Origin: Histomonas meleagridis | Lineage: Eukaryota > Parabasalia > Tritrichomonadida > Dientamoebidae | DNA length: 64,000 nucleotides | Reading direction: 5' to 3' | NCBI GenBank assembly: GCA_020186115.1 | Contig: WSYJ01000030.1 | Span: 372,001 to 436,000, forward strand | Part shown: positions 1 to 59,343 of the stretch, piece after piece | Layout of the letters: each line of letters starts with the position of its first letter | How positions within the stretch are numbered: the stretch's first letter is position 1 | Program-made: the position numbers and the translations under genes | Notes under the pieces: model-generated | Databases searched by the model: none | Told to the model about the DNA's origin: nothing | What the model saw: the letters and a program-made list of their open reading frames with translations, nothing else

Positions 1-149
1 TTTACATTATCATATTTATTACTCTTTGCAGCTTCAATTAGTGGTGCAGCACCCCTCCAATTTTTCAAATTAATATTAATCCCTTTCTGGTTAAGTAATA
101 GTGTAACAATATCAACATCACAATTTATACAAGCAAAAACAAGAGCTGT
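1..149 (-). CDS. Ankyrin module, 3' part of the DUF3447 gene (partial at window edge)
   Basis: Read on the minus strand, this stretch opens with Thr-Ala-Leu (ACAGCTCTT, 149-141) and encodes about 49 residues of ankyrin sequence without a stop until the window edge: TALVFACINCDVDIV, then LLLNQKGININLK, then a second repeat start GAAPLIEAAK. It lies downstream of the DUF3447 core at 171-1388, but a spacer of about 70 nt with a TAG stop separates the two frames. Here the second ankyrin repeat follows the first without any spacer, unlike the other loci in the window. I infer it is the next exon of the same gene; it could also be part of a pseudogene. Confidence 0.55.
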
Positions 150-170
150 TTGAAATATTATTAAAAATTT

Positions 171-23233: not shown

Positions 23234-25859
23234 TAGGGTTTCCGAAAACGGTACTCGTACTTTTTAACCGTTTTTTGTCATAACGTTTAAACAGGTACAA
23301 GTACAAAAAGTGACGCATATGAAAAGTGACATGACACCCAAAGTACAAAAAGTGACATTTATATTTGTTTTATGCGTTTTTTCCGATACATTTGAGTAAT
23401 TTATAAATATATTCAAATTATTTTGCATGTATATATGTTGATGAAAATATTATCAGAATACTATTTAAAAATCTATTTTAAGAGACACAATAATTTAAGA
23501 TAAAAAAATTTTTTGGAGTAGACCGTTTATATGATGATCGTTAACCGCTATTTATTGTGTAAATTGAAATGATTAAAAGATTTATTTTAAAAATAAAAAT
23601 AAAAAAGATATTTATAATTAGAATAAGAATAAGAATAAGAATAAAATTAAAATAAAATACAATAGATTTTTCATCAAAAAATATTTAATTGACAGTTTCA
23701 ACTCATTATGATATTAAAAATTATATCATTTCATAAAATATCATCAAAATCAGCAATTATATTATCATATTACATAATTATTCATTTATAACAAATACAC
23801 ACACTTATAAAAATATATTTTAGTTGAATTTATTTAGCTTAATAAATCAGCATTAACATAGAGAAAAGCTCTTTCAGTTGCACTTTCTTTGGACAATGCA
23901 CCGCACTGGTCTGGTAAAGCATATCTTGCCATTGAAAATACTCGCTCTATGTTTGCTGAACTTGCTTTAAAACAAAAGTACTTTTCAGCAATTTTGAATG
24001 AATTTGGGAATTGTTTTGACTATATTTCCGAAATGATACAATATTTGTATTATCTGGAATTCTAACTTTTTTAAATAGCTTGTATTCATTTGCATTTCGT
24101 GTTGCATTTCGAGATCTAGGCGAGGTGTTTATGTTATTTTGGTTAGTTTGATGTGGAATTTTTGATTTCAAGTAATTTTTAGCTTCGATATAATATTTTT
24201 TTAATTCATATGGCAAAAGCTTTTTGCCATCTAAACAAGGGTTAAGAATTGCTGCAATGGTTAGGTTATTAAGAAATTCTTCATATTTAATTAACCTTGT
24301 AAATAGTGTATTTTTTAAATTGTTGGATTGTTGAATGAATCCACTCATATGCATTTCCTGAGTTATCTCTTGATAAATTTCCATTACTAAATCTAGGGCA
24401 CAAATAAAAATATCATTTGAATCACTTTCAAGCTTTTTTGTAATATTGCTAATTTTCGTTATATAAGGCAAAATTGCATTTAAATATATCCAATCATTGT
24501 CATTTAATTTATCATCATCTTTTATTTTTTATAATTCGATTGACCTATCCTTAATTTAATAAAATTCGTAAATTTCCTTACGAAGTTGACATGCACGTTT
24601 GATTGAATTATATAAAGAAAGCCACCTAATTTCAATGTAACTCGGAATAATTTTACACTTTTTACCTTTCAAAGTAAGATATTGTTTGAATTGGCAATTG
24701 TTATATAAAACACTTAATTTATTGATAATTTGTTTGAGAGTTAAATCATTTGATATCCAATCAAGAAAAGCTCTATTTATAATATGAGAGCAACATGGTG
24801 TCCATTCAATGCCTGATATTTTGATTGCTTTTCTTACAGAAGATGCACAATCTGTGCATGTACAGGCAATTTTATTTCTATCTAGGTTATAACAAGCTAA
24901 ATTTTCATCCAAAATTCTGGAAATAACGCTTGATGTTCTGCTTATATCGTCCGGAACCGTTAAACATAATAAATAATAACCACTCTCGATTGTTACCGAA
25001 ATTCCAATAAAATTATAATTATACCTGATATATTCATCAAGAGAAAGGAAATAATATGGACATTGATCAAGAATACTTCTAATTTTCGATTGAATCATTA
25101 AATAAGTTTCATGGAATCTAGTTTCAAATGTCTCTAATGAAGGTAATGAATATGGAAATAATTCGGCAAACGATTTAAACTTTATTATTGAATGTGGAAT
25201 TGCATTAACTGCAAAAAAATTTATTATTATTCTATCTAAATCCTTCTTCCATAATTGTGAAGTATAATGTTTTGCTTTAACATGTTTTGAAACATTCCCT
25301 GGATCTGAAGAAATATATTTGTTACACAAAGAACAAAAGCCAATTTTACACCCAATCATCAAATAAATATAATCATGATTTTTATGTTTTTGTGCAAAAG
25401 AAAGAGTAATTGAGTTTGGTGGTTTGGGTACAATTATTTTTGGTAATTGATTCAGTCTATTAAAGTCAAAAATTTCATTAGCTTCAATAAATGGAATACT
25501 TACAATATTTTGCATCCGAAGAAATGATGTGATACCAGATCGATTTGAGATAATCTAATAAATTTTTATCAAAATTCGAAGTTTGAATCTAAACACATGA
25601 CTTTGAACTTAAAAATCAAAAATTTTGAATTCAAAAACTGCATCATTTAAGAAATAATGCAATTTTTATCACCAAGTTTTTGAATGGTCTATTTTTAACC
25701 GGAATTTGGCGGTTAATGTACAAGTACAAGTACCTTCTTTTAAGAAAAATCGATAAACCAACCAAAAAAAAGTACTTCCAGATTGAGAGACACTTTTTGT
25801 ACAAGTACTTTGCGTCACTTTTAACCGATCGTACAAGTACTTTATTCTAGGAAACCCTA
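23234..25859 (-). mobile_element. hAT DNA transposon, 2.6 kb, full-length but with a broken transposase
   Basis: The element starts TAGGGTTTCC and ends with its exact inverse GGAAACCCTA. The inverted repeats continue imperfectly inward, both sides carrying GTACTNGTAC-like motifs and TTTTAACCG. Subterminal regions hold many copies or half-copies of GTACAAGTAC and GTACAAAAAGTGAC in both orientations (23250-23355 and 25715-25850), likely transposase-binding clusters. It is flanked by perfect 8-bp duplications ATGGTGAT. The single transposase-like gene on the minus strand has two in-frame stops and one frameshift, so the element is probably non-autonomous now but could be mobilised by an intact relative. 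Family: hAT superfamily by termini, target-site length and the C-terminal dimerisation motif. Confidence 0.95.
23834..25515 (-). pseudogene. hAT transposase, inactivated
   Basis: From ATG at 25515 the first 319 residues include a BED-type zinc finger (CSLCNKYISSDPGNVSKHVKAKH, C-x2-C ... H-x4-H, near residue 65) and RNase H-like hAT core segments (YFLSLDEYIRYNYNFIGISVTIE; CTCTDCASSVRKAIK; WTPCCSHIINRAFLDW). An in-frame TAA at 24558-24556 and a second TAA about 35 nt further on interrupt the frame, which then resumes unchanged to 23947. There a frameshift moves the last part into another frame: the hAT dimerisation motif ASSANIERVFSMARYALP, ending at a TAA at 23836-23834. So damage is two nonsense codons and one indel. 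All parts of a normal hAT transposase seem present, only broken. Confidence 0.88.
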
Positions 25860-27524: not shown

Positions 27525-28072
27525 CATTTCAAACAAATTTTGATTTTAATCAAACAATTAATCCATCACTTTATGAAAGATGTGATTATGCAGCATTTTT
27601 CTATTAAATGTTTTAAATATTTACTTATAAATAATGCAAACGTTGAAGATACAGGTAAATATGCAGTTGTAGGTGGAAATGAAGAAATCATTCATTTATA
27701 CTAACAAAATCATTCATTATTTAAATATGCATATGAAGCAGCAATTGAATTTCATCGAAATTACATCTTTCATTATTTTTATGATAATAAGAAATTAATT
27801 ATTTAGAAGAATTTGGAAAGCTTTGTATTTTATATAATAATTATGAAATATTTTCATTTTTAGTTAAAGAAGAAATGAGAATCAATGATTATATTATTAA
27901 TGAAGCAGCAACTATTAGAAATATTTATTTAGTTGAATGTTTTCTTAAAGATCATTCAGTTCGGCATGATATATTGGCATTTTTATCTGAATCAAGAAAT
28001 ATTGAAGTTGTTGAATACTTATTAAATCAAAAAGGAATTGTTATTAATGTTGAAGATATTTATTTGTTTTAA
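27525..28072 (+). pseudogene. Degraded DUF3447 ankyrin gene fragment
   Basis: Pieces of the family in shifting frames: FDFNQTINPSLYERC (27541 on) with an internal deletion before the YAAFF segment, KCFKYLLINNANVEDTGKYAVVGGNEEIIHLY ending in a stop at 27702, then AYEAAIEFHRN, and finally an open frame from 27875 (MRINDYIINEAATIRNIYLVE to VINVEDIYLF) with the family's usual end. The N-terminal 200 residues are absent. Stops and frameshifts show it is dead. It is closest in wording to the neighbour at 30709. Confidence 0.85.
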
Positions 28073-28394
28073 TTAAAATTTAATTTAATAATTTCTTGTT
28101 TCAAAATATTATTTTTGATTTCAAATATTTATTAGAGCATTTATAGATGAAATTTTGGTATATTTGGAAAAAATAGAAAAGAACAATATTAATAATTAAA
28201 AAATGAAATTATTTAATAAATAAAAATGATATTTGGTTTATTTCAATGTGTTAAATGATAAAATAATAAAACATTCTTATAGCCTATAAAAAAATATTTT
28301 CATTAAAGAATAGCATTGGATTGAATGGATATTTTTTAAGTTTAAAAATGCGAATTTGACATTTTCTTTAGTGTTTATTGAAACGAAATATTGT

Positions 28395-29788
28395 TTAATT
28401 CATAAGTCTTCCAAAGAATTCGATTCTGTTCAGTGTAAGGTAGTAGGTGCCACACCAGTTCTTATCAGTTTGTGTTAGCTTCAAATAACGGAATTGTTCT
28501 TGCTTTCCTTGAATCTCAAAAAATGCTTCTTTACTGTATCCATTTAGTGAACCATTATTGGATATTTCATCAAGAATTGTCCAATTACTTTTGTCATTAG
28601 AACCCTCCAATTTCCAACTTTTAAGATATTGTGGACCCCAATTATTTGAAGATTTTAATGAATATGCAGTGAGAGAAACTTTTCTATCTTTGAAATCGAA
28701 TATAATAAATTGATTTACAATGTTTTGTGTACCGAAATATCCTTCATCTTGTACAATACTGCTTAATGGATATCTTTTATCATTGATAAATGAAGATGCT
28801 ATCACTTCAATTGTTCCATTTGTTATAATATTTCAATTACTTTGTTTTGTGAGATGATCAAGAATTCCATTAAATTTATTTGTTCCGTCATATTTAGATA
28901 GAAAAGGTAAAAATCTCTTTAGAAATTCTTCGTCAGATCTTTTGCCTCGAATTTTTTTAAGCGCAGGCCACAGATCACCGATTTTATCTGGCGGAATTGA
29001 ATCAATAATGGATGTCAATCTATCAGAATCTTCTTCTTCTAAAAATTCACTGTGAATATATTTAAATAAGACATAAAATTCTGGATTTTGTTGATATTTT
29101 CTAATAACAAAATCAAGCAATGATTTTTCATTTAAAAGTTTGAGTTTATCACATTTCAAAAACAATTCTAATTGTGACAACGAAAAATTTTGATCTTTAA
29201 TTCTTCAGAATGTTTTGCTCCATATTCAATTTCTTTGTCAATATTAACTCCTGCTTTCGTTTTGGTGTGAAGAATATTTATTAAATTGTCATTATTGATT
29301 TCAAGAGATAATTTTTCTATAAGTTCTGGATTTTTAAGATGGTTAAAAATGTTGATAAGTGGATCTTTCAAATCAATAATATTAACACTTTGTCCATGTA
29401 ATAAATTCTCTAATTTATGAATTATTTCATCTGTTACAACTTCGTCAACTTTTAAAAAAATCATTTTTGGGTTTTTAGCTTTCATATTTGAAACAACAGG
29501 TGAAATAAATTCTGCAAGGAAGTCAGGTACTTTTAATACTTTATTATTTTGAAATCGAAACTCGAAATTATTTTCATAATTTTTAAAATTAATTCTTTTT
29601 AAACCTTCTACTGAAAGTGAAAAATTCAATAAACACTTACAATTGAAATTTTCTTTATAAGGCCTAATGCCACAATTTGATATCGATTCCATAAGTCGTA
29701 ATTTATGTGAAACAATGCTAATGCAAAAAATGCCATTACAATTTTCGGAGCTAACGGTTGCCACATTTAAAAAACCGTTGGAAACCAT
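28395..29788 (-). pseudogene. BTB/BACK-like protein with C-terminal F5/8C domain, broken
   Basis: Three open pieces form one protein. The first (29788-29168) has FEFRFQNNKVLKVPDFLAEFISPVVSNMKAKNP, a BTB-like segment, and helical repeats. The second (29180-28833) has ESLLDFVIRKYQQNPEFYVLFKYIHSEFL, BACK-like. The third (28805-28395) is an F5/8 type C (discoidin-like) domain: GTQNIVNQFIIFDFKDRKVSLTAYSLKS, then YLKSWKLEGSNDKSNWTILDE, RYLKLTQTDKNW, and NRIEFFG. Pieces one and two are joined by a one-base shift in an A/T homopolymer near 29180, and pieces two and three share the same frame with a single TGA at 28835-28833. This domain order is common in trichomonads. Two lesions only, so recent death or sequence error. 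Confidence 0.75.
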
Positions 29789-29940
29789 AAATTGCTATAT
29801 TTTTTTATATGCCAATACTAAGTGAGGGCGCTAGTTTAGTCATTGTGTTGTAGGAATATAGATGGCGTTTTCCAATATGAGTATCAAATTAGTTTAAAGA
29901 TATTTTAAATATTTTCTCAAATTTATGTCGTCGTTCACCT

Positions 29941-30708: not shown

Positions 30709-31797
30709 GTGGGAGGAAACCAAAGTAAAGCGATTATCAAATACAACGAAAACCTTCAAATATTGCAAGCTATTGAGAGAATTATTTTCGATTTAAATGA
30801 GGAAAATATTGATCAGTCAGTCGAATCTTCTTTTCAATACTTTTCTCAAGAATTTCCAATTTCATTTCTTCACATTATTAGCAGAATTATTTATTCATAT
30901 TTTGTTTCCAAAGGATTTGAAAAATTATGCATCAAGTATTTACAGAAAGCAGAAATAAAATCGAATAATACCTTAATTAATGTTGTTACTCAGTTTTTAT
31001 TAACAATTAATAACGAAGAATCAAATTATTTTATTGAAAAAATGATTGAAAGTAAATTAATAGAACCAAAAATTATTCAAAATAAAAATAATCCTTTTTA
31101 TATACATTATGTTTCAGAAGAAGAATTCATAAAAAAATATGTTAAGAATGGACACAATCCAAATAAAATCGCAACAATAATTCGTAATGATGAAGTCGAA
31201 AAACTTCAAGAAATATCATCACAAACAAATTTTGATTTTAATCAAACAATTAAACCATCGCTTTATGAAAGATGTTCATTTATTAATCAAAGAAATGTTA
31301 GATTAATTGATTATGCAGCATTTTTTTCTTCAGTTAAATGTTTTAAATATTTACTTATGAATGGGTCTAAATTAGATAAAACAGGTAAATATGCAATTGC
31401 AGGTGGAAATGAAGAAATCATTCATTTATGTGAGCAAAATCATTCATCATTTGATAGCGCATATGAAACAGCAATCATGTTTCATCGAAATGATATCTTT
31501 AAATATATTTATGAAAATAAAATTAACCATGATAATAATTTAGAAGAATTAGGAAAAGAATGTATTTTACATGATAATTTTGATCTTCTTTCATTTTTAA
31601 AAGAAGAAGGAATGATTATCAATAAGAATCATATCATCAATTCTATTAGAACAGGAAATATTTTTATTTTTTTATATTTCCTCGGAAATAATAAGATTTC
31701 ACTAAATTTTTTGGAGATTTCAGAGATTTCTATCAAGGAAGAATTTTTTAACTACCTTATTAATCATAAATATATTAATTTAAAGAGGAGTGTTTGA
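30709..31797 (+). CDS. DUF3447 ankyrin-family protein (core ORF, about 362 aa; GTG start)
   Basis: Family blocks are intact: YVKNGHNPNKIATIIRNDEVEKLQEISS around residues 138-165, FDFNQTIKPSLYERCSFINQ, VKCFKYLLMNGSKLDKTGKYAIAGGNEEIIHLCEQNH, and FHRNDIFKYIYENK. The N terminus reads MGGNQSK if the GTG at 30709 is the first codon; the sister gene at 52296 starts ATG and reads MGNGASK. Both fit an N-myristoylation site (MGxxxSK). Here ATG has become GTG, so initiation may be impaired or may use a downstream Met. The ORF stops after INLKRSV, and ankyrin modules continue from 31872. AACGGTT at 30560-30566. Probably the 5' exon of a gene ending at 36056. Confidence 0.75.
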   Translation: MGGNQSKAIIKYNENLQILQAIERIIFDLNEENIDQSVESSFQYFSQEFPISFLHIISRIIYSYFVSKGFEKLCIKYLQKAEIKSNNTLINVVTQFLLTINNEESNYFIEKMIESKLIEPKIIQNKNNPFYIHYVSEEEFIKKYVKNGHNPNKIATIIRNDEVEKLQEISSQTNFDFNQTIKPSLYERCSFINQRNVRLIDYAAFFSSVKCFKYLLMNGSKLDKTGKYAIAGGNEEIIHLCEQNHSSFDSAYETAIMFHRNDIFKYIYENKINHDNNLEELGKECILHDNFDLLSFLKEEGMIINKNHIINSIRTGNIFIFLYFLGNNKISLNFLEISEISIKEEFFNYLINHKYINLKRSV

Positions 31798-31871: not shown

Positions 31872-34800
31872 ACAGCACTTATTTTAGCATCTGAAAAAGG
31901 TCACACAGAAATTGTTAAAATACTTCTTAAACAAGAAGGAATTGATGTTAATGTAAAAGATATTCATTTGAATAATTTGCAATATGTTTTAATAATTTGA
32001 TATATGTTTTAATAATTTGGAATATGTTTTAATAATTTGAAACAGCACTTCATATAGCAGTTAAAAATAAAAATATAGAAATAGTAAAATTACTTTTAGA
32101 TAAAGAAGGAATTGATGTTAATGCAAAAACTATTCATTTGAATAATTTGGAATATGTTTTAATAATTTAGAATATGTTTTAATAATTTGAAACAGCACTT
32201 CATATTGCAGTTAAAAATAATAATATAGAAATAGTAAAATTACTTTTAGATAAAGAAGGAATTGATGTTAATGCAAAAACTATTCATTTGAATAATTTAG
32301 AATATGTTTTAATAATTTGGAATATATTTTAATAATTTAAAATATGTTTTAATAATTTTATATATGTTTTAATAATTTGAAATATGTTTTAATAATTTGG
32401 AATATATTTTAATAATTTGATATATGTTTTAATAATTTTATATATGTTTTAATAATTTGAAATATATTTTAATCATTTGAAACAGCACTTCATATAGCAG
32501 TTAAAAATAATAATATAGAAATAGTAAAATTACTTTTAGATAAAGGAATTGATGTTAATGCAAAATATATTCATTTGAATAATTTAGAATATGTTTTAAT
32601 AATTTTATATATATTTTAATAATTTGAAATATGTTTTAATAATTTGGAATATGTTTTATTAATTTGGAATATGTTTTAATAATTTGGAATATGTTTTATT
32701 AATTTGGAACAGCACTTCATATAGCAGTTAAAAATAATAATATAGAAATAGTAAAATTACTTTTAGATAAAGGAATTGATGTTAATGCAAAATATATTCA
32801 TTTGAATAATTTGGAATATGTTTTAATAATTTTGTATATGTTTTAATAATTTAGAATATGTTTTAATAATTTGAAATATATTTTAATAATTTGAAATATA
32901 TTTTAATAATTTTATATATGTTTTAATAATTTAGAATATGTTTTAATAATTTGAAATATGTTTTAATAATTTGGAATATGTTTTATTAATTTGGAACAGC
33001 ACTTCATATAGCAGTTAAAAATAATAATATAGAAATAGTAAAATTACTTTTAGATAAAGGAATTGATGTTAATGCAAAATATATTCATTTGAATAATTTA
33101 GAATATGTTTTAATAATTTATAATATGTTTTAATAATTTGGAATATGTTTTAATAATTTTATATATGTTTTAATAATTTAGAATATGTTTTAATAATTTG
33201 AAATATGTTTTAATAATTTGGAATATGTTTTATTAATTTGGAACAGCACTTCATATAGCAGTTAAAAATAATAATATAGAAATAGTAAAATTACTTTTAG
33301 ATAAAGGAATTGATGTTAATGCAAAATATATTCATTTGAATAATTTAGAATATGTTTTAATAATTTATAATATGTTTTAATAATTTGGAATATGTTTTAA
33401 TAATTTTATATATGTTTTAATAATTTTATATATGTTTTAATAATTTATAATATGTTTTAATAATTTGAAATATATTTTAATAATTTGAAACAGCACTTCA
33501 TATAGCAGTTAGAAATAATAATATAGAAATAGTAAAATTACTTTTAGATAAAGGAATTGATGTTAATGCAAAATATATTCATTTGAATAATTTAGAATAT
33601 GTTTTAATAATTTGAAATATGTTTTAATAATTTGAAATATATTTTAATAATTTTATATATGTTTTAATAATTTATAATATGTTTTAATAATTTGGAATAT
33701 ATTTTAATAATTTGAAACAGCACTTCATATAGCAGTTAAAAATAATAATATAGAAATAGTAAAATTACTTTTAGATAAAGGAATTGATGTTAATGCAAAA
33801 TATATTCATTTGAATAATTTAGAATATGTTTTAATAATTTGAAATATGTTTTAATAATTTGGAATATGTTTTAATAATTTTATATATGTTTTAATAATTT
33901 ATAATATGTTTTAATAATTTGAAATATATTTTAATAATTTGAAACAGCACTTCATATAGCAGTTAGAAATAATAATATAGAAATAGTAAAATTACTTTTA
34001 GATAAAGGAATTGATGTTAATGCAAAATATATTCATTTGAATAATTTAGAATATGTTTTAATAATTTGAAATATGTTTTAATAATTTTATATATGTTTTA
34101 ATAATTTTATATATGTTTTAATAATTTATAATATGTTTTAATAATTTGAAATATATTTTAATCATTTGAAACAGCACTTCATATAGCAGTTAGAAATAAT
34201 AATATAGAAATAGTAAAATTACTTTTAGATAAAGGAATTGATGTTAATGCAAAATATATTCATTTGAATAATTTAGAATATGTTTTAATAATTTAGAATA
34301 TGTTTTAATAATTTGAAATATGTTTTAATAATTTGAAACAGCACTTCATATAGCAGTTAGAAATAATAATATAGAAATCGTAAAATTACTTTTAGATAAA
34401 GGAATTGATGTTAATGCAAAATATATTCATTTGAATAATTTAGAATATGTTTTAATAATTTGAAATATGTTTTAATAATTTGGAATATGTTTTAATAATT
34501 TTATATATGTTTTAATAATTTTATATATGTTTTAATAATTTATAATATGTTTTAATAATTTGAAATATATTTTAATAATTTGAAACAGCACTTCATATAG
34601 CAGTTAGAAATAATAATATAGAAATAGTAAAATTACTTTTAGATAAAGGAATTGATGTTAATGCAAAATATATTCATTTGAATAATTTAGAATATGTTTT
34701 AATAATTTGAAATATATTTTAATAATTTGAAATATATTTTAATAATTTTATATATGTTTTAATAATTTAGAATATGTTTTAATAATTTGGAATATGTTTT

Positions 34801-36056
34801 ATTAATTTGGAACAGCACTTCATATAGCAGTTAGAAATAATAATATAGAAATAGTAAAATTACTTTTAGATAAAGGAATTGATGTTAATGCAAAATATAT
34901 TCATTTGAATAATTTAGAATATGTTTTAATAATTTGAAATATATTTTAATAATTTGAAATATATTTTAATAATTTTATATATGTTTTAATAATTTTATAT
35001 ATGTTTTAATAATTTGAAATATGTTTTAATCATTTGAAACAGCACTTCATATAGCAGTTAGAAATAATAATATAGAAATAGTAAAATTACTTTTAGATAA
35101 AGGAATTGATGTTAATGCAAAAACTATTCATTTGAATAATTTAGAATATGTTTTAATAATTTAGAATATGTTTTAATAATTTGAAATATGTTTTAATAAT
35201 TTGAAACAGCACTTCATATAGCAGTTAGAAATAATAATATAGAAATCGTAAAATTACTTTTAGATAAAGGAATTGATGTTAATGCAAAAAATATTCATTT
35301 GAATAATTTGGAATATGTTTTAATAATTTGTAATATGTTTTAATAATTTATAATATGTTTTAATAATTTGAAATATGTTTTAATAATTTAAAATATGTTT
35401 TAATAATTTTATATATGTTTTAATAATTTTATATATGTTTTAATAATTTGAAATATGTTTTAATAATTTTATATATGTTTTAATAATTTTATATATGTTT
35501 TAATAATTTGAAATATGTTTTAATCATTTGAAACAGCACTTCATATAGCAGTTAGAAATAATAATATAGAAATAGTAAAATTACTTTTAGATAAAGGAAT
35601 TGATGTTAATGCAAAAACTATTCATTTGAATAATTTGGAATATTTTTTAATAATTTAGAATATGTTTTAATAATTTGAAATATGTTTTAATAATTTGAAA
35701 CAGCACTTCATATAGCAGTTAGAAATAATAATATAGAAATAGTAAAATTACTTTTAGATAAAGGAATTGATGTTAATGCAAAAACTATTCATTTGAATAA
35801 TTTAGAATATGTTTTAATAATTTGAAACAGCACTTCATATAGCAGTTAGAAATAATAATATAGGAATATTAAAATTACTTTTAGATAAAGGAATTGATGT
35901 TAATGCAAAAGATATTCATTTTAATAATTTGGAATATGTTTTAATAATTTTATATATGTTTTAATAGTTTGGAATATGTTTTAACAATATTTTACTGCAA
36001 TTCAAATTGCACATCAAAAAGGTTACACAGAAATAACAAATGTACTTCGTGAATAA
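31872..36056 (+). repeat. Array of 20 ankyrin-repeat modules separated by 20-nt minisatellite spacers
   Basis: Twenty modules, each one ankyrin repeat of 32-33 codons (TALHIAVRNNNIEIV, then KLLLDKGIDVNAK, then YIHL), begin at ACA codons 31872, 32042, 32192, 32482, 32709, 32996, 33243, 33490, 33717, 33944, 34171, 34338, 34585, 34812, 35039, 35206, 35533, 35700, 35827 and 35994. All are open; none has a stop or indel. Between them the DNA is AATAATTT plus n copies of a 20-nt unit (like GGAATATGTTTTAATAATTT), then one codon before ACA. Start-to-start distances are 127, 167, 227, 247, 287 or 327, or 150, 170 and 290 when the module carries one extra codon: always a constant plus 20n, n from 1 to 11, about 104 units in all. 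Frames differ from module to module. The last module (35994-36056) carries its own stop after NVLRE. Most likely exons of the gene at 30709; otherwise amplified dead modules. Confidence 0.85.
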
Positions 36057-50724: not shown

Positions 50725-51163
50725 TTATAGATTTCTTTTTAATTTTAAAATTCTTTTTGTTTCTTGAAGTAATTCAACTATTTCTGTATGACCTTTCCAA
50801 GATGCCCAAATAAGTGCTGTTCTAAATAATTTGAATAATTTCCAAATATTATTTTGAAATATTAAATTATTAAAATAAATCCAAAATAAAACAAATAAAT
50901 ACCTTTAGCATTAATATCAATTCCTTCTTGTTCAAGAAGTAATTTAACTATTTCTGTATAACCATTTGAAGATGCATAAATTAGTGCTGTATCAAATAAT
51001 TTGAATAATTTCCAAATATTATTTTGATATATAATAAAATTATTAAAATAAATCCAAAATAAAACAAATAAATATCTTTAGCATTAATGTCAATTCCTTT
51101 TTGTTCAAGAAGTAATTTAACTATTTCTGTATGACCAAATAAAGATGCTTTCATAAGTGCTGT
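50725..51163 (-). repeat. Three ankyrin modules with 68-71-nt spacers, 3' part of the gene at 51235-52296
   Basis: Minus-strand modules start at ACA codons 51163, 50990 and 50820. Module 1 reads TALMKASLFGHTEIVKLLLEQ (then KGIDINAKDIYL), module 2 TALIYASSNGYTEIV (then KLLLEQEGIDINAKGIYL), and the last TALIWASWKGHTEIV (then ELLQETKRILKLKRNL) followed by TAA at 50727-50725. The terminal module has a basic tail unlike the repeats, a natural C terminus. Spacers run TTTTATTT then three roughly 20-nt segments ending in TTT, as in the 57.2 kb locus. Confidence 0.75.
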
Positions 51164-51234
51164 ATAAAATAATTTAAATAATTTCCGAATATTATTTTGA
51201 AATATAAAATTATTAAAAAATATTTTAAATAAAA

Positions 51235-52296
51235 CAAATAAATATCTTTAGCATTAATATCAAATCCTTCTTGAACAAATAAAAAGTTAAAAATTTTATG
51301 ATTAATGAATTTATCACTTAAACAACTCATAATAATTGTATTTGCAGAAAAATTAATAACATTATTTTCATAAAGATATTTAAAGATATCATTTCGATGA
51401 AATTTAATTGCTGCTTCATATGCACCTTCAAATGATGAATGGTTTTGTTCACATAAATGAATAATTTCTTCATTTCCACCTGCAACTGCATATTTACCTG
51501 TTTTATCTAATTTAGACCCATTCATAAGAAAATATTTAAAACATTTAACTGAAGAAAAAAATGCTGCATAATCAATTAATGTAACATTTTTATGATTAAT
51601 AAATGAATATCTTTCATAAAGTGATGGTTTAATTGTTTGATTAAAATCAAAATTTGTTTGTGATGATATTTCTTGAAGTTTTTCTATTTCATCATTTCGA
51701 ATTATTTTCGCAAGTTCATTTGGATTATGTCCTTCTTTAACATATTGCTTATGAAGCGCAAAATCATTATTTAAAAATTCTTCATAATTTCCATCAAAAG
51801 GATTATATAGATTTATTGAACTATTTGGAAAATGGTGTACAAAGTAAAATAGATGTTTGTCTTTAACAGATTCTGATGAAATTAAATTCATATCAATCAT
51901 TCTTTCTAATATGAAATTTGATTCATATGAATCAAAATTTAGAAAAAAATCTATAAATGTAGTAATTAATTCATAACAATTTCCTTTGGTTTCAATTTGT
52001 TTCATATAATTTAAATATATGCTTAAATCTTTCATCTGTGAAAGAATTGCTGAACATACCAATTTAATGAGAATTGAATTTGAGTAAGATGAAATATCTC
52101 CAAAGGCTAATAAATTTATGGATGAATTAACAGATTCTGTAATGTTATTTTCATCTAAATCAAAAATAATTTCTTCAAGAGATTCCAAATCTTTATTGAA
52201 TTCAGGTACAAAATAATGAATTGGTAGTGTTACATTTATTTGAAATGATTGATTAATACTTGTTTTCGTTTGATTTTTGCTTGCGCCATTCCCCAT
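51235..52296 (-). CDS. DUF3447 ankyrin-family protein (core ORF, about 354 aa before the spacer)
   Basis: The N terminus MGNGASKNQTKTS fits N-myristoylation (MGxxxSK). Family blocks: YVKEGHNPNELAKIIRNDEIEKLQEISS, FDFNQTIKPSLYERYSFINHKNV, VKCFKYFLMNGSKLDKTGKYAVAGGNEEIIHLCEQNH, FHRNDIFKYLYENNV, then an ankyrin end GFDINAKDIYL. The open frame continues to 51151 as FYLKYFLIILYFKII..., which is the spacer that separates ankyrin modules at this and the 57 kb locus, so I end the coding core at 51235. Nearly identical in its middle (about residues 200-290) to the gene at 30709, indicating recent duplication or conversion. Confidence 0.8.
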
Positions 52297-52833
52297 TACC
52301 TTAAATAAATACGATTAAAAACCATAGAAAAAAAGCACTTTTTTATCATCCTTTTTCAAATTATTTTTTGTGTTCTCATTCACTGAGCATTAACTTGTCA
52401 GTACACATAGAGTATTTATAAAGAAATGTGATCCAATTCCGAAATTTGTCAAAATTGAATTTTTTTTATGTAAATATTCAAAATAAAATTTATATTTTAT
52501 ATATTTGGAACATTCCTATATTTTTCCTCATGAGTAAAGTTAACAAACGGTCTCTCGTTATACTTATAAACGGTTACTCTGAAGAATTATCTAAAGGACT
52601 TTTTATATAAACCCCACAAATTTGTGGTGAGCGACAACATCCCTTTTGGCCGCAAGAAACCCAACAATAGGTTCGTATTAACCTAGCGAAACAATGGTAC
52701 GTAAATCAGTCAGATAAAGCCCAGTTAATCCTAATGCACTTCAGAACAAATTTGTTCAGCGATTCGAACGCACTCATTCGCACGTGTGTGCTGCACTCAA
52801 TCATTAAAACAAAAGTAGTTAATTGTGTTGTGT
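52297..52833. other. Intergenic with two similar palindromes
   Basis: 537 bp. Perfect 14-bp palindromes CCACAAATTTGTGG (about 52613-52626) and GAACAAATTTGTTC (about 52743-52756) share the core ACAAATTTGT and are about 130 bp apart. A 60-codon plus frame (52428-52610) ending KRSLVILINGYSEELSKGLF contains AAACGGTT; its coding status is uncertain. Confidence 0.35.
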
Positions 52834-55488
52834 TTAGGCTTTGATGTGCTCTCTGAGTTTGATACTCCAAGCGAATAAGACGAATGCCAAAATCGTTGCG
52901 ATTCCTTCGATTGGTAACTTCTTAATCAATTCGCTGATTGACTTTTCGATGACTACTCTCTGTGTGTAGATTGGCTTCTCGTTGTCATCCTCTCCGATTC
53001 TTCTCAGTTCGATTCCGCATGCGCCGTTGAGTCCCTCGGTGGTGTAACTCAAACGACTTCCCTTCTTCTTCTGCGTGAGTGGAACGACGTCTACTAAGTC
53101 GCCCTGCTTGTCGTAGATGTTTGCCTTCAATGCGCCGCTTGGCAACTTCTTGTTGTCCACAATTATGTTGTAGTCAACGATTAAATATTTTGCGGATTCG
53201 ATGACTTTGGACTTGATGTCGATGCTGCCGATGACTTTGACTTTCGATTGGTATAAACCGGACTCAGTGTTCACTGGAACGAGTTCTTTGCCTTTACGTA
53301 TCATTATCGCAATGGTTATTTCACCTGATGGAATAGCGCCGGTGATTTGGATCTTAGCGTTATACTTGTCGTCAATTAATTTGGCCTTCTTCTCAAGTAA
53401 CACGTTCTTAGTCTCTGGATTTATGATGACAATGACTGGATATGCGTATGTTGATGTGAGTACTTTATCACTATCTTTGTCTTTAAGAACAAATTGTAAC
53501 TTAAGCTTGTCGCCGTATTTCAAGTTATCAGTGCTAATTTTATCGCCTTCAGCAATGATTGTTGTGCTTACTTTGATGAAGCATTCCTTCTCTTGTTGTA
53601 ATAAAATTGGTTCATTTGATTCTGAGTCAAATAAGAAGTCAACTGTGAATCCGGTTGCGATATCTAAGTTCTCGTCAACATTACTTTCGAATTCGACATA
53701 TAATTTCTTTTCTTTATCAACTTTAACATCACCGTCAATAGTTTTAATGACTGAATCTCCAACTTTAATGCGCATCTTATATTGTTGTGTTTCGGATGAT
53801 GTCTGTGGATAAAATGCTTCGCCTGATGCATCAATTAATTCTCCTTTAATGATTTCTTCATTTTGGAATGGTACATATTCTTGTCCAATCTCTAATGCTG
53901 GTGTCATCTTAACCTTAAGGACATCGCTTAATTTAAGATCTGTTGGCAATTCGATGTTAATTGCGGACATTGTACCTTCGACTTTATAAGAGAATTCTTT
54001 ACGTGTGTGAATGCCATTAACTTTATCACCAATTTCAATAATCGCCTTTAAGTTACCAATTGGTATAGCTAATGATGGTAATTGGTATGTAAACTCAAGT
54101 TGTGTCTTGAAGTCTTCATTCTTATGATATAAAATTGCGCCGGCGGAATCGGTGATTTGGAATGTGACTGCTGTTGTTGGTTGAACTTCAATTGATTCAT
54201 CAAATTTGCCTTCGATTTTAACATTGAAGTTAACTCCGGGTGAAACTACGCCACCAACTGGGATGATCTCATCTGCTTGGAGATATGCTTCGCATGAGAC
54301 ATCAACTGGTAATGAAACATGTGCACGGACAGATTTGGTGATGACAAGTGGAATGCTCATCTCTGTTGTGAACCATGCAACAACATCAATTCCCATTTGG
54401 CCAAGTTTGTTAACAGATGCAAAACGTTGGGCATTGTAAAGACCTGTCTTATAGTCGATTTGTAATGTTTCGGTGTATGGAGCTTCATCACCTAAAAGTG
54501 TTGTGACATTGACTCTCATTAATGGATTGACAAATCTGCCAAGTGAGGTAACTGCAATGACTGGATGGATAACTTGTTGTACTTTAACTCCTTCCTTTTC
54601 AATATCAAACATGTTGCCTTCGACTGATCCACATAATACTTTGATTTCAAAGAATTTGGAAATTTCACCAGAGGCTGAAAGAATGACATTGGCATAGTAT
54701 AAATCAGCTAATGAGCCACTCATCTTAACTGCATGGACAAGTGAAATTGGGAATGCTTCTCCACCAAGGAAGTAAAGGAAGCGAGCACCTGCAGCTGCTT
54801 CTTCGTTGTCAAGTTTTCCTTCTTTGATTTGTGCATTTAACTTGGAAATGACATATTCGGAAATGCGATGATATGGAATGGAAAGAGAAATGAACTTAGC
54901 AATGGAACCAGCATAAAGTTGAGCTTTGATTGGAGAAACACCTTCGATTTCAAAATGATCTTCAACAAGGAGATCTGTAATGAAATTCTTTGTGGCAAAT
55001 GTGTTGAGCCAAGTGGTATCAGAATCATGGAACCTTGAAAGAAGTTGGTAAGCATAGTATGTTGCTTCAATTGATGGTTGTGATTCTGGTGTATCCTTGA
55101 ATAAACCTGAAACCATATCATAGTTAGAATGAAGGAATTCAGTGATACGTTGGATATCAATTGATTCTGGAGCAATCATTGTGCACATGATGAAGTAGAG
55201 ATAAGTTCCATAAATTGAGGATTTAGATCCTGGAGTAAGAGCTGCACCTCCATCACGGTTATGAAGGGTTTGGATCCAACGGAAGCAAGTTTTAGCTTCA
55301 ATATATGGGAAGGCACCATAGGTAGCGGCAATCCAAACAGCACGGTATGTATCACGTGCATTTGCTTCACGATCAGTGTCATAAAAACCACCACTCTGGT
55401 GTTGGAAACGAATTAAGTCTGTGACCTCCTTTCCCATTGTGTAGGCATCAATAAGGGAAGATGCAAGAGTCAAAAGACCAAAAAACAT
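52834..55488 (-). CDS. Type I membrane protein with alpha-toroid-like N terminus (884 aa)
   Basis: The ATG at 55488 gives MFFGLLTLASSLIDAYTMG, a good signal peptide; the longer frame from a TTG at 55563 would bury it. Residues about 20-320 look like an alpha/alpha toroid (FQHQSGGFYDTDREANARD, TYRAVWIAATYG, CFRWIQTLHNRDGG, PSIEATYYAYQLLSRF), the pattern of prenyltransferase/squalene-cyclase or complement thioester-domain repeats. Beta-rich tandem domains follow (about 330-840), then one transmembrane helix (GIATILAFVLFAWSI) and a short basic tail (KLREHIKA). The layout, lumenal helices then beta domains then membrane, recalls ribophorin II/Swp1 of the oligosaccharyltransferase, but that protein has several membrane segments; the call is speculative. 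TCATTT initiator-like site about 35 bp upstream. Confidence 0.7.
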   Translation of the reverse strand: MFFGLLTLASSLIDAYTMGKEVTDLIRFQHQSGGFYDTDREANARDTYRAVWIAATYGAFPYIEAKTCFRWIQTLHNRDGGAALTPGSKSSIYGTYLYFIMCTMIAPESIDIQRITEFLHSNYDMVSGLFKDTPESQPSIEATYYAYQLLSRFHDSDTTWLNTFATKNFITDLLVEDHFEIEGVSPIKAQLYAGSIAKFISLSIPYHRISEYVISKLNAQIKEGKLDNEEAAAGARFLYFLGGEAFPISLVHAVKMSGSLADLYYANVILSASGEISKFFEIKVLCGSVEGNMFDIEKEGVKVQQVIHPVIAVTSLGRFVNPLMRVNVTTLLGDEAPYTETLQIDYKTGLYNAQRFASVNKLGQMGIDVVAWFTTEMSIPLVITKSVRAHVSLPVDVSCEAYLQADEIIPVGGVVSPGVNFNVKIEGKFDESIEVQPTTAVTFQITDSAGAILYHKNEDFKTQLEFTYQLPSLAIPIGNLKAIIEIGDKVNGIHTRKEFSYKVEGTMSAINIELPTDLKLSDVLKVKMTPALEIGQEYVPFQNEEIIKGELIDASGEAFYPQTSSETQQYKMRIKVGDSVIKTIDGDVKVDKEKKLYVEFESNVDENLDIATGFTVDFLFDSESNEPILLQQEKECFIKVSTTIIAEGDKISTDNLKYGDKLKLQFVLKDKDSDKVLTSTYAYPVIVIINPETKNVLLEKKAKLIDDKYNAKIQITGAIPSGEITIAIMIRKGKELVPVNTESGLYQSKVKVIGSIDIKSKVIESAKYLIVDYNIIVDNKKLPSGALKANIYDKQGDLVDVVPLTQKKKGSRLSYTTEGLNGACGIELRRIGEDDNEKPIYTQRVVIEKSISELIKKLPIEGIATILAFVLFAWSIKLREHIKA

Positions 55489-55884
55489 ATTGTGACACTT
55501 TTTACCGGCCTCGTGCTGTGAAAAATGACGGTTATTGAAATAATTGGCGATGTCATTTGACAACTCAAATGGCGGTTGTCCGTTTTGAAATAATTTCGGA
55601 AGTTATCAATTCAAAAACGCTTTATCGTTTCTTTATTCATTGTACGTTAAAAAGCCCGGCAAAATAAATTGTTCAAATAATATCTACATAAAAAACGACA
55701 AATTAAGTATAATCCGGTTATGTTCATTGGTATATTGGACATATAGACATAAAGATTAATCTCAAGTGGCTGTTTGGGGTGAGGTTGAAAAAGATCAATT
55801 CAAGTGGAAAATAATCGTTATATTGGTGAAAAAGTTGTAATTAACGGTCGCTATTGTAAGATATTTAAATAAATTCATTTTTAT
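55489..55884. promoter_or_regulatory. Divergent promoter of toroid protein and DUF3447 gene
   Basis: 396 bp. On the toroid side, ACCGTCATTT precedes the ATG by about 35-45 nt (minus strand), and a second AACCGCCATTT lies further up. On the DUF3447 side AACGGTC (55843-55849) and TCATTTTTAT lie directly before the ATG. TCATTT fits the TCAYTW initiator. Confidence 0.45.
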
Positions 55885-57165
55885 ATGTGTGAAACAAAAT
55901 TTGGGACATCACAGACAGATTTTTTAGAAAGTAAAATAGAGAGTTCTAAAGGTGGATTCACCATAATGCATTTTTTAACTGAACTTGAACAAATAATTTT
56001 CAATTTAAATGAAGAAAATTTTAATATATCAATTCATCAAGCAATGAATTTATTTGATTCTAATTTTGCATATTCATTTAATATTGCTATTTGTATATTA
56101 TCATATACAGCATTTTCTTCTTTAAGGAATGAATACGATTTATATTTTCAATTTCTAAAAACAATTAAATCAAAAGAAGACGAAATAAGTAATAACAATT
56201 ATAAAGCAATTGATATTTTTGGTAAATATGTTTCTAAAATTGAAACACAAGAAGCATATTTTCTTATAGAAAGAATGATTATGGAAAATTTAATTAGCAA
56301 AAATGTTACAGTCAATATTCAATCTAAATATTTTGCTCATTATAAAACAGAATCAAAGAATAAAAACATTAATAAAAATGATCCATTCTTTGAAAAATTT
56401 TATCATAGTTATTCTCAACTTTCAAAAAATGATTGGGAACTTCATAAGAAATATGTTAAAGAAGGAGTTAATCCAAATGAACTTGCGAAAATAATTCGAA
56501 ATGATGAAATAGAAAAACTTCAAGAAATATCATCACAAAATGATTTTGATTTTAATCAAACAATTGAACCATCACTTTATGAAAGATATTCGTTTATTAA
56601 TAAAGAAAATGTTTCATTAATTGGTTTTGCAGCATTTTTTTCAGCAGAAAAATGTTTTAAATATTTATTTATGAATGGTGCAAACGTAAATGACATTGGT
56701 AAATATGCAATTGCAGGTGGAAACTTAGAGATCATTTATTTATGTGGACAAAATCAAGCATCATTTGACGATTTATTTGAAATTGCAATTCAATTTCATC
56801 GAAATGATATCTTTAAATATATCTATGATAAAGATTATCAAGATGAAAATCATTCACAATTAATGAATAATATACATTTCACAAATGAATTTGGGCAAAA
56901 AGATTATAATAAATTAATTAATATTTGTGTTAAAAGTGAAAATTATGAAATTTTTTCATTTATAGAAAAAGAAGATAAAATTGATAATTTTATTATAAAT
57001 GAAGCAGCAAAAATTGGGAATTTTTATCTCGTTAAGCATTTGATTGATAATAATCGCATTCCAAAAGATATTTTGATATTTTCTTCTTGTTCTGATAACA
57101 TAGAACTAGTAAAATATATTATTAAACAAAAAGTTATTAATATTAATGAAAAAGATATTTTTTTT
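55885..57165 (+). CDS. DUF3447 ankyrin-family protein (core ORF, about 427 aa)
   Basis: The helical N-terminal half (LTELEQIIFNLNEENFNISIHQAMNLF) is followed by the family core: KYVKEGVNPNELAKIIRNDEIEKLQEISSQ, FDFNQTIEPSLYERYSFINKENV, EKCFKYLFMNGANVNDIGKYAIAGGNLEIIYLC, FHRNDIFKYIYDK, and IINEAAKIGNFYLVKHLI. It closes KVININEKDIF. The frame reads on to 57204 with a hydrophobic low-complexity tail that is spacer by comparison with the following modules. Start ATG 55885; TCATTT lies just upstream. No myristoylation signal (MCETKFGT). It is the presumed 5' exon of the module series to 58698. Confidence 0.8.
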
Positions 57166-57237
57166 ATTACTTTTAAAATCTGTTTTTTGAATTTGACGAT
57201 TTAAGATTATATTTGGAATATAATATAAATATTTTGC

Positions 57238-58698
57238 ACAGCACTTATTAGAGCTTCTGAAAATGGGAATAGTGAAATCATAAAAATACTTCTTAAACAA
57301 GATAAAATTGATGTCAATCTTAAAAACATTAATTTGTTTTAAATAAAGTTTTTTTCAATGATTTTATATTTTTTATTAATATTTGGAAATTATTTCTAAT
57401 TTTTGATATCGCACTAATGACAGCTTCTAAAAATGGGAATAATGATGTTTTAAAATTACTTATTGAACAAGGGGGATCTAATATTAATACTAGAAATATT
57501 CAATTATTTTGTATTATTTTTGTTTTTTTAATTAGATATTTTAAAAAAATATTTGGAAATTGTTCAATTTTTTTTTAATACAGCAATTATATATGCATCT
57601 GAATATGGCCATACAGAAGTAGTTAAATTACTTATTGAACAAGAAGGAATTGATATTAATGCTAAAAATATTTATTTCTTAATATCAACATTTAATTTAA
57701 TAATTTATTGTTTCGAAATTGAATTTAGAAATTGTCAAAAATATTTAATACAGCACTTATTTTAGCTTCTTTAAATCGATATCTTGATATTGTCAAACTC
57801 TTACTTCAAAAAGGAAACATAAATATCAATGAACAAAATTTTTATTTGTATTATTCATTGTTTATTGTATTTGTTTGATGTATCACAATAATATTTGGAA
57901 ATTATTTTGATTATTTAAAACAGCACTTATAATTGCATCTTCAAAAGGTCATACAGAAATAGTTAAATTACTTCTTGAACAAGAAGGAATTGATATTAAC
58001 GAAAAAAAATATTTATGTATTTTATTTAGAATTTATTTTAAGAATTTTGGATTTCAAAATAATATTTGGAAATTATTTATATTATTTGATACAGCACTTA
58101 TGTTTGCATCTTCAAATGGTCATACAGAAATAGTTAATTTACTTCTTGAACAAGAAGGAATTGACATTAATGCTTTAGATATTTATTTGTTTTATTTTAT
58201 GTTTATTTTAATAATTTAGAATTTTAAAATAATATTTGGAAATTATTTAAATTATTTAAAACAGCACTTATATTAGCATCTGATAATGGTAGAATAGAAA
58301 TAGTTAAATTACTTCTTGAACAAGAAGGAATTGGTATTAATGCTAAAGATATTTATTTGTTTTATTTAAAATTTATTTGAATAATTTAATATTTCAAAAT
58401 AATATTTGGAAATTATTTATATTATTTAGAACAGCACTTATGAAAGCAACTGAAAAAGGTCATACAGAAATAGTTAAATTACTTCGTGAAAAAAAAGGAA
58501 TTGATATTAATGCTAAAGATATTTATTTGTTTTATTTAAAATTTATTTTAATAATTTTGGATTTCAAAATAATATTTGGAAATTATTTATATTATTTGAT
58601 ACAGCACTTATTTCAGCATCTAGAAATGGTCATACAGAAATAGTTAATTTACTTCTTGAACAAGAAGGAATTAAAATAGATGATTCCAAGCGAATATA
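57238..58698 (+). repeat. Nine ankyrin modules at a 170-172-nt period, 3' part of the DUF3447 gene at 55885
   Basis: Modules begin at 57238, 57408, 57580, 57750, 57920, 58091, 58261, 58431 and 58601. Each is one ankyrin repeat (for example TALIRASENGNSEIIKILLKQ; TAIIYASEYGHTEVVKLLIEQ; TALMKATEKGHTEIVKLL). The older, upstream modules are strongly diverged in DNA yet keep the repeat motif and an open frame; the fifth has a one-base gain near its end. Spacers are 68-70 nt plus one codon, readable as 8 + 3x20 nt with TTT at 28, 48 and 68. All have TTT-NNN-AC/T at the 3' edge, and most carry AATATTTGGAAATT. The last module ends IKIDDSKRI then TAG at 58696-58698. Most likely exons; not shown. Confidence 0.8.
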
Positions 58699-59343
58699 GA
58701 TTTCTTGGAAAAATTATGGAAATTTTGAAACTATCTTTATTTATTTCTATAGAAGCATATGCTATTTTTAGAAATTATTTAAAATCGATGATTTTTTAGA
58801 AATAATTTTATTTGTTTGATAATTTTTCATACATGTCATCTTATATTATGAGTTTATGGTTATATAAGCTTGATGTTGAAGATCTTTATGTGGAATATTC
58901 ATCAGTGCACATGTGCATTGAATTATATGATAATTTCCATCAGTTTTGGAGCTGATTATACCATAGCACAGCCTGTGCTATGTAAGGCTAAGAATTCCAA
59001 ATCTTTGGTTTTGGGACGAACGAATAGTTATGGGCAATTAGGTCTTGGGAATATGATTAGATATATAATTTTAGTCTGATCAAATTTAATTCCAAACAAC
59101 GTTTTATGGGTTCCACATGTTGTGGTTTCTTTACACTCCTTCTTACTGACTCAACCTTTGTGTAGGGAATCCCATACAAATCAAGTTAGATAAGGATTTA
59201 TGGATATCAAAAAATGAAATTTTATCGCATAAAAACTCAACACATCAAATTCAGGCGCGTGGCCCATCTCAAAAAAAACAAACTTTTTGTATGTATAATT
59301 GAATTGAGTTGACCGGTTTATTTTGAACACAATAACTTCTCAA
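58699..59343. other. Intergenic with an RCC1-type fossil
   Basis: 645 bp between the ankyrin modules and the Rab-like gene. Besides the RCC1-like remnant (listed separately), GACCGGTTTATTTTG at 59310-59324 lies just upstream of the Rab-like start. Confidence 0.45.
58870..59065 (+). pseudogene. RCC1-repeat protein fragment
   Basis: The plus frame contains ISFGADYTIAQ and, after a diverged linker, LGRTNSYGQLGLGN, the signature of one RCC1 blade (x-G-x-N-x-x-G-Q-L-G-x-G). Only part of one or two blades is left, with no upstream or downstream repeats, so this is a decayed scrap of a beta-propeller protein. Confidence 0.65.

Follow-up and report, generated by a model that had tools for sequence, protein, structure and literature searches.

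In many ankyrin genes of Histomonas meleagridis, a poultry parasite, single codons of the repeat hairpin stand isolated between AT-rich inserts of 17 nucleotides (nt), and these one-codon islands are probably translated while the inserts are skipped. The arrangement is found in a stretch of 64,000 nt, hereafter the window (GenBank assembly GCA_020186115.1, contig WSYJ01000030.1, forward-strand positions 372,001 to 436,000; 27% GC), in which four loci with a DUF3447 core and ankyrin repeats each appear broken when read as plain DNA. According to our reading, the hairpin codons D1-x2-x3-G4-x5, i.e., the ligand-facing fingertip, would be encoded as islands among the inserts, which usually number 0 to 4 in each hairpin but reach 12 in one array; such islands would be translated and diversified, and the inserts would be missing from the protein. 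The junction anatomy, the near-fixed insert length, the sense codons and amino-acid diversification of the islands, and the fit to ankyrin are all evident in the sequences.

The genome searched comprises 43,276,120 bases in 121 contigs; for the virulent strain, the accessible text of the genome report gives 43,414,808 bases, 187 contigs and 28.66% GC, together with an annotation of 573 introns and a maximum of one per gene (PMC8529796). Approximately 290 kb were read directly, from a sample picked through DUF3447 and ankyrin matches. A class search, whose script sought only classes of 0 to 4 inserts and preferred the largest unless the junction was contiguous, returned 190 unique junctions, 175 of them insert-bearing. 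Two further collections were used: a strict set of 144 junctions with ankyrin evidence on both sides and length left free, and a set of 81 genome rows from contigs C1-C8 among the matches listed, with near-duplicates removed, in which the rows at C8:123.6-124.9 kb overlap locus L044, so that this sample is independent for the most part, though not entirely. The position of inserts at codon boundaries is an assumption built into all parses, one that stops and residues support without proving it. We take the window to be nuclear DNA, because its DUF3447 loci neighbour open reading frames (ORFs) that by eye resemble Rab GTPases, ribosomal proteins and a kinase.

Anatomy of the interrupted junctions

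At the four window loci, the DUF3447-core ankyrin match ends at N-x-x-D, with the ORF running slightly into AT-rich DNA, and an AT-rich stretch separates this point from T-A-L, where ankyrin coding starts again. The original prediction had already recognized this break at one fixed point of the repeat, with ankyrin coding on both sides, and the pattern is far beyond chance, given that the 13-mer ATATTTGGAAATT occurs 3,226 times in the genome versus 9 for its reversed control. Interruption at all loci, as that prediction proposed, holds for the four loci but not for every junction: at positions 1-1388, the junction that follows an interrupted one reads N-W-R-G-A-A-P-L contiguously and insert-free (by eye). 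The single spacer block, and with it a gene of one exon per repeat and one non-canonical intron between them, had to be abandoned; the spacer contains codons x2, x3 and G4, it is built of 17-nt pieces, typically four, and the mature linker would read D-x-x-G-x-T.

In the four-insert junction the order is D-(17)-x2-(17)-x3-(17)-G-(17)-x5-T-A-L, which gives a spacer of 77 nt from D1 to x5 and a common unit of 170 nt. The inserts typically run ATTT...ATTT, with the consensus sequences ATTTATTTGTTTTATTT, ATTTATTTTAATAATTT, ATTTCAAAATAATATTT and AATTATTTAAATTATTT, and their ends are better conserved than their middle (entropy of 0.61 versus 0.97 bits). Successive module-plus-spacer units lie most commonly 170 nt apart (82 distances), followed by 340 (12) and 153 nt (5), and the 90-nt module is free of stops in 82 of the 85 units of exactly 170 nt. 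By column statistics, the module shows codon periodicity, with second positions least variable, and the spacer is AT-rich and conserved, with oddly variable columns at 127 and 167-169 that correspond to the x3 and x5 codons.

Junctions with fewer inserts display the same organization. In three ankyrin genes (L030 twice, L038 and L036), a single 17-nt insert falls exactly at the boundary after the fourth linker codon of D-x-x-G-x-T, the fourth codon being GAT in one of the L030 junctions. Junctions with 34 extra nt (L015, L032, L037, L038 and L041) read D-x-x-(17)-GGN-(17)-x-T in four cases, with AGA replacing GGN in L037; in units of 153 nt the 51 extra nt are arranged as D-x-(17)-x-(17)-G-(17)-x-T, and in units of 170 nt the 68 extra nt fill all four gaps. 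The classes with one, two, three and four inserts obey one rule, in which gaps are filled from the G4/x5 side; they look like a stepwise gain from G4/x5 toward D1/x2, its direction being a matter of interpretation, and the expanded linkers found in the window are explained by tandem duplication of 20 nt. We also considered ATATTTGGAAATT as a splicing signal placed 26 nt from an acceptor, an idea that was dropped once the 17- and 34-nt junctions identified its GGN as the G4 codon.

Among the 190 unique junctions, 15 carry no insert, 3 carry one, 5 carry two, 36 carry three and 131 carry four. The strict set gives extra lengths of exactly 0, 17, 34, 51 or 68 nt in 121 of its 144 junctions (8, 1, 2, 26 and 84, respectively), the remaining lengths being 28, 35, 48 (2), 54 (2), 59 (2), 69 (2), 71 (4), 77, 99, 121 and 128 nt (6), where the six 128-nt cases come from linkers of the window that contain seven inserts plus three additional codons. 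The 81 genome rows are distributed as 68 nt in 57, 51 nt in 13, 71 nt in 6, 54 nt in 2, 69 nt in 2 and 59 nt in 1. A length scan using a codon hidden Markov model (HMM) with neutral inserts of 8-40 nt did not single out 17, the scan being sensitive only to length modulo 3. Insert-free ankyrin junctions of the same genome have equal linker length and mostly read D-x-x-G-x-T; moreover, one DUF3447 gene (L029; G000:C66:478900-480900, minus strand), in which the class search detected ankyrin junctions only of the insert-free kind, is a natural control for its insert-bearing paralogues.

These observations bear on an explanation that we consider unlikely, namely that the arrays are an unexpressed reservoir of silent cassettes, whose codons are kept intact via exchange with expressed insert-free copies. 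Such a reservoir would suit a huge and repetitive family (1,695 DUF3447 first-look candidates in the genome, of which 150 were scored) with some insert-free members such as L029, as well as the module divergence ratios near 1 described below and the several loci that parse only piecewise. Nevertheless, the exact lengths of the strict set speak against it, and so do loci that begin with a start codon, stay open through the core and end in a stop, such as window positions 50725-52296; in addition, one common module end was never met in contiguous form by the exact pattern used, for which gaps of 12-42 nt gave 3 matches, none of them at gap 12, versus 1,579 at 60-90 nt.

Coding properties of the islands

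Codons x2 to x5 contain no stop in the 175 insert-bearing junctions. For the four-insert class, column shuffling predicts 4.0, 9.6, 0 and 12.0 stops at x2, x3, G4 and x5 (25.6 altogether) and none is observed in 131 junctions, although these come from 24 sources and their relatedness makes the stop counts less than fully independent. In 61, 43, 19 and 65 of 85 units, a stop appears when the islands are read one base earlier; stops do not contradict a shift of +1, but the residues and the Pfam fit do. Glycine is found at G4 in 132 of 175 junctions (98/131 with four inserts, 28/36 with three, 4/5 with two and 2/3 with one), where the other residues are mostly E, R, K and N, while among four-insert junctions N, D, Y, W or E predominate at x3 and K, D, E, N, W or R at x5. 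The genome rows agree, with no stop at x2, x3 and G4 of the 57 rows of 68 nt or at x2-x5 of the 13 rows of 51 nt, and with glycine at G4 in 50/57 and 12/13, respectively. In a partition scan with a profile built from 17 contiguous linkers, the placement of G4 was unique (1.51 versus 0.13 for the next).

In close pairs, amino-acid change in the islands far exceeds both silent change in the modules and divergence in the inserts, as estimated from pairs of units of exactly 170 nt, which makes these pairs uninformative on length. The closest within-locus pairs (13 pairs, <10% divergence) show an island nonsynonymous divergence (pN) of 0.146, a module synonymous divergence (pS) of 0.030 and an insert divergence of 0.043; the corresponding values are 0.475, 0.146 and 0.123 for pairs at 10-20% (65 pairs), and 0.355, 0.090 and 0.057 for between-locus pairs (15 pairs). 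In more distant bins island pN plateaus at 0.46-0.52, with module pS of up to 0.45 and insert divergence of up to 0.37. Conserved ankyrin scaffold positions are well separated from variable ones, and amino-acid variety is highest at positions x3, 10, x5, 13, x2 and 14 of the 34 in the unit, most of which, we presume, coincide with the contact positions randomised in designed ankyrins.

Conceptual translations that include the islands fit the ankyrin models best. The Pfam Ank score was 121.2 bits with islands, 108.6 with the join of the original prediction and 108.1 with the whole spacer removed for the window, and 171.2, 144.8 and 143.6 bits, respectively, for locus L020; the five models above their cut-offs, Ank (cut-off 21.1), Ank_2, Ank_3, Ank_4 and Ank_5, all scored best with islands, by margins of 6.6-52.8 bits. 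Because the islands lack stops, favour glycine at G4, change in amino acid beyond silent and insert divergence, and improve the Pfam fit, we infer that they are translated.

Three other ways of reading the same junctions can be weighed against these data. In one of them, a single longer intron would run from D1 to x5 (77 nt in the four-insert class) and the inner codons would be relics, which has the merit that one excision per junction suffices and that the flanking modules are coding. Relics, however, should gain stops and lose glycine, in contrast to the 0 stops and 98 glycines in 131 junctions; in amino-acid variability, x3 and x2 belong to the top five positions of the unit; the scores for Pfam Ank, Ank_4 and Ank_5 fall by 13 to 52 bits when islands are left out; and insert-free paralogues retain all four linker residues. 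We regard such an intron as decidedly improbable. The spacer of the original prediction, with edges after TTG and before an NNN ACA sequence, is scarcely credible; it restores the repeat length, and the evidence that points to translation of the other islands applies equally to its NNN codon (x5), but it usually places leucine at G4, its proposed exon end has a stop in 14 of 131 junctions (including an L025 module), it ranks 25,587 of 57,155 partitions, it lowers the Ank score by 12.6 and 26.4 bits and is 6.7-52.8 bits worse across five Pfam models, and it leaves the 17- and 34-nt junctions unaccounted for. The third reading, translation of the inserts as longer loops, at least in the 51-nt class, draws on the fact that this class preserves the frame and that several arrays are open across it (L046 and L048); nonetheless, an in-frame stop occurs in 18 of 36 three-insert junctions, the 17-, 34- and 68-nt classes shift the frame, and the single codons show similar residues across classes, which leaves read-through very improbable.

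Abundance of the inserts and candidate mechanisms

Genome searches suggest that these junctions are numerous. AATGCTAAAGAT followed after 60-90 nt by ACAGC has 1,579 genome matches versus none for the control, and TTTGG followed after 8-36 nt by ACAGC has 6,303 versus 679, an excess of ~5,600; among the matches listed (all on contig C1), the latter gap is 21 nt in 57 of 100 and any other gap occurs at most 6 times. These counts point to more than 5,000 junctions carrying the TTTGG...ACAGC signature and, by extrapolation at three to four per junction, to inserts of the order of 20,000 genome-wide. An HMM found 770 inserts in 287,740 bases, 597 of them in ankyrin context as defined by a regular expression and 173 elsewhere, where most of the matches listed are ankyrin arrays missed by the expression and a few lie in other genes. 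The absence of inserts outside ankyrin genes covers the ordinary genes of the window and the neighbours of the sampled loci, and one exact pattern gave no matches in viral contigs or in bacterial and archaeal genomes. A BTB/BACK-like gene (by eye) at ~29150-29790 of the window, minus strand, continues its coding in another frame past a T run; examined at ~29.2 kb as a non-ankyrin case of an insert, it was rejected and read as a simple frameshift at the T run, possibly a pseudogene or a homopolymer error.

Regarding their own sequence, none of 645 inserts has GT...AG ends (77 begin with GT and none ends in AG), 371 begin with AT and 1 ends in AC, so that AT-AC ends do not characterise them either, and a branch-like CTAAC, CTAAT or TTAAC string is present in only 5; the absence of GT-AG ends and of the trichomonad branch signal, noted in the original prediction, is thereby confirmed. 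The inserts appear devoid of structure (mean minimum free energy of ~0 over the first 200 of the 645), and ATT, a sense codon, is their commonest beginning (336/645). They correspond neither to the definition of a spliceosomal intron nor to that of a bypass element with matched codons. A U6 candidate is present in the genome (43.7 bits, gathering score 44) with the usual ACAGAGA box. The pattern GTATGT plus 8-38 nt plus CTAACACACAG gave no genome matches, and the looser GTATGT...CTAAC...AG gave 47 versus 229 for the reversed control, a few of which look real by eye. Two 25-nt strings of the form GTATGT...CTAACACAG or GTATGT...CTAACACATAG, resembling trichomonad short introns, lie at G000:C21:116564-116588 and G000:C30:1059941-1059965, and a handful of trichomonad-type introns may exist in this genome. 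Standard splicing rules look intact, because the U6 candidate has its ACAGAGA box and a few GTATGT...CTAACACAG strings occur. On visual inspection, no convincing pairing between inserts and U6 was apparent, and this idea was given up.

The original prediction argued for a spliced product; a product lacking the spacer material is indeed implied, but splicing is only one option, and translational bypass is equally compatible with the 17-nt length and the one-codon islands. On either route we would expect expression of the genes and a machine that skips the 17-nt inserts one by one on the way from gene to protein. The most likely mechanism, tentatively held and short of even odds, is programmed translational bypass, a fixed-length skip made codon by codon during translation. 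We lean to it because the islands are of one, rarely two, codons, the insert length is near constant, and excision would leave free trinucleotide exons; the near-constant length, in turn, speaks for a ruler. As a speculation, bypass might be triggered by the nascent ankyrin peptide, which would explain why inserts are seen only in ankyrin hairpins.

Nearly as likely as bypass is RNA excision, in which ultra-short non-canonical introns would be removed successively by an altered spliceosome or by a cut-and-join system of another kind. The same anatomy fits this mechanism, as do the U6 candidate and insert ends more conserved than the middle; the islands are whole codons, so that skipping an island would stay in frame; and ultra-short introns are described elsewhere, with 15 nt in Stentor, 18 nt in Bigelowiella and 23 nt in Trichomonas in the accessible portion of one report (PMC12316389). 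On the other hand, GT...AG ends and branch-like strings are as rare as stated above, the U6 ACAGAGA box and the trichomonad-type strings suggest intact standard rules, 3-nt exons between up to 12 inserts would be hard to hold, and motif-driven cutting of all messenger RNAs is unsupported, given that insert-like 17-mers are not avoided in ordinary genes. The motif alone cannot trigger skipping, for this same reason.

Several results weigh against the skipping of inserts around translated islands, or at least limit how firmly it can be held. Five non-island offsets are also depleted of stops (z < -3), though never to zero. The partition with islands at (20,40,60) ranks 53rd of 57,155, with only G4 uniquely placed by the scan, and two models below cut-off favour the join of the original prediction, Ank_KRIT1 by 0.9 bits (L020) and ANK_LRRK2 by 2.8 bits (window). 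The length rule is broken by one base at 69 nt (2/144) and 35 nt (1/144) in the strict set and at 69 nt (2/81) among the genome rows, and in the plus-strand window locus an extra T in a long T run gives an 18-nt insert at 57157-57237 and at ~57560-57579 (the second by eye). The codon HMM parses several loci only piecewise (e.g., L011, L023, L024 and L025) and others in full. Matched take-off and landing codons are absent (7/645 versus 10.7 expected by shuffling), although several mitochondrial bypass cases likewise lack a perfect codon match, according to one report (PMC5009743). A window locus with 120 inserts (31872-35984) would demand near-perfect skipping. Furthermore, 17-mers with insert ends are not avoided in 86 long ORFs (110 observed versus 110.4 expected, with some of the ORFs entering inserts), nor are insert-scoring 17-mers in the 17 ordinary ORFs of the window (766 versus 728.5). 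Lastly, the original prediction named a dN/dS near 1 across modules among the conditions that would refute it, and such values are approached, since uncorrected module pN/pS is 1.67, 0.98, 0.73 and 0.76 in the four within-locus bins, the highest in the closest pairs. Purifying selection on the modules thus appears weak or mixed; in our reading, these ratios reflect a conserved scaffold with variable positions at its surface, not absent selection.

With somewhat more confidence than doubt, we propose that, at more than 5,000 ankyrin hairpins, this nuclear genome spends 20 bases on each codon, that either the ribosome or an RNA-joining machine makes a 17-nt hop between consecutive codons, and that the arrangement serves to diversify the fingertips with which a very large protein family binds. 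If the islands are translated, either thousands of 17-nt segments are excised without GT-AG ends, leaving single-codon exons, or ribosomes skip them; either would amount to a mode of gene reading new for a nuclear genome, and the published annotation would miss the structure of a very large ankyrin family. The literature search, which left preprints and most subscription papers outside its scope, returned no title or abstract opening describing such inserts. With near-fixed length, thousands of copies, insert-free paralogues and islands that track contact positions, the family would constitute an unusually clean test system.

Loci of the window and known systems

One window locus (50725-52296, minus strand) parses from ATG to the final stop once the 17-nt inserts are omitted. 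Its core ORF, from the ATG to codon D1 (GAT) of the last core ankyrin repeat, occupies 51244-52296 (Pfam DUF3447, 34.2 bits, in ORF 51154-52296) and is followed by junction 1 at 51167-51243, with islands K, Y and G and inserts at 51227-51243, 51207-51223, 51187-51203 and 51167-51183. The x5 codon and ankyrin module 1 (T6 to D1) lie at 51074-51166; junction 2 at 50994-51073 has islands W, YY (two codons) and G and inserts at 51057-51073, 51037-51053, 51014-51030 and 50994-51010; x5 and module 2 lie at 50901-50993; junction 3 at 50824-50900 has islands W, N and G and inserts at 50884-50900, 50864-50880, 50844-50860 and 50824-50840; and x5 with the final module, which has its own stop, lies at 50725-50823.

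On the plus strand, a second locus has its core ORF, to codon D1, at 55885-57156 (ORF listing and Pfam scan), and a junction at 57157-57237 with inserts of 18 (T run), 17, 17 and 17 nt and islands K, D and G plus x5 (right-anchored grid; the 18 by eye). Ankyrin modules at 57238-58699, the last with its own stop, are separated mostly by four-insert junctions, those at 57840-57916 (I-D-G), 58181-58257 (Y-R-G), 58351-58427 (K-N-G) and 58521-58597 (K-W-G) being clean; the extra T's of this locus may be real or homopolymer assembly errors. A third locus (plus strand) comprises a DUF3447 core, given as the longest ATG ORF, at 31042-31797, and an ankyrin array at 31872-35984 with expanded linkers of 2 to 12 inserts of 17 nt each, in which 17 of 18 donors fit an exact 20-nt grid and 115 islands contain no stop. 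The fourth (1-1388, minus strand; core at 171-1388) has an ORF that continues into inserts, and one of its junctions consists of 17-nt inserts plus one extra base, off the rule. DUF3447 (PF11929) scored 34.2 and 29.3 bits, above the Pfam cut-off of 26.9, in the two of the four loci scanned. A truncated DUF3447/ankyrin-like fragment at 27875-28200 (plus strand) shows three 17-nt inserts after NVED, followed by apparently non-coding sequence.

Elsewhere in the window, an ORF at 24556-25515 (minus strand) resembles what we take to be a hAT-type transposase fragment, and a protein stretch encoded at 8836-11031 (minus strand) presumably resembles C39-like peptidases (VPYINQSNIPSGCEAVSATMLMQYYG). 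By eye, the product of 11586-14546 (plus strand) is a BspA-like leucine-rich surface protein, in which a tandem T-K-S-N-x-F repeat and, at the C-terminus, a membrane segment can be distinguished. An AACGGT/ACCGTT-like motif, also by eye, lies less than 50 nt upstream of ATGs (e.g., 7808, 18839, 22274, 49765 and 55885), i.e., at several housekeeping starts and at the DUF3447 gene at 55885, and is a possible promoter element.

Among known systems, the byps of Magnusiomyces capitatus mitochondria are alike in that short non-coding blocks are skipped, the frame resumes and copies are many (81 instances in the accessible text of PMC5009743). In contrast, the Histomonas inserts are nuclear and measure only 17 nt, with as many as 12 following one another around single codons; they have been seen so far only in ankyrin hairpins, without matched take-off and landing codons, and their skipping in translation is a proposal. 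Ultra-short spliceosomal introns, such as the type B introns of Trichomonas (23-25 nt), a parabasalid relative, and those of Stentor (15 nt), share the very short length and the T-richness, as far as the available part of that report goes (PMC12316389); unlike them, the Histomonas inserts have no GT-AG ends or ACTAA-type branch motif, leave 3-nt islands between them and, by extrapolation, would be hundreds of times more numerous than the 63 introns of T. vaginalis. In T4 gene 60, too, the ribosome skips a coding gap at high efficiency (PMC5009743); that gap is single and 50 nt long, with matched GGA codons, stem loops and a stop codon following take-off. The Histomonas inserts differ from it in being unfolded and in beginning mostly with the sense codon ATT. 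In designed ankyrin repeat libraries, diversity is concentrated at fingertip and first-helix positions. Largely the same positions vary most in the Histomonas arrays, which, unlike those libraries, belong to a natural gene family whose variable codons are physically isolated by inserts.

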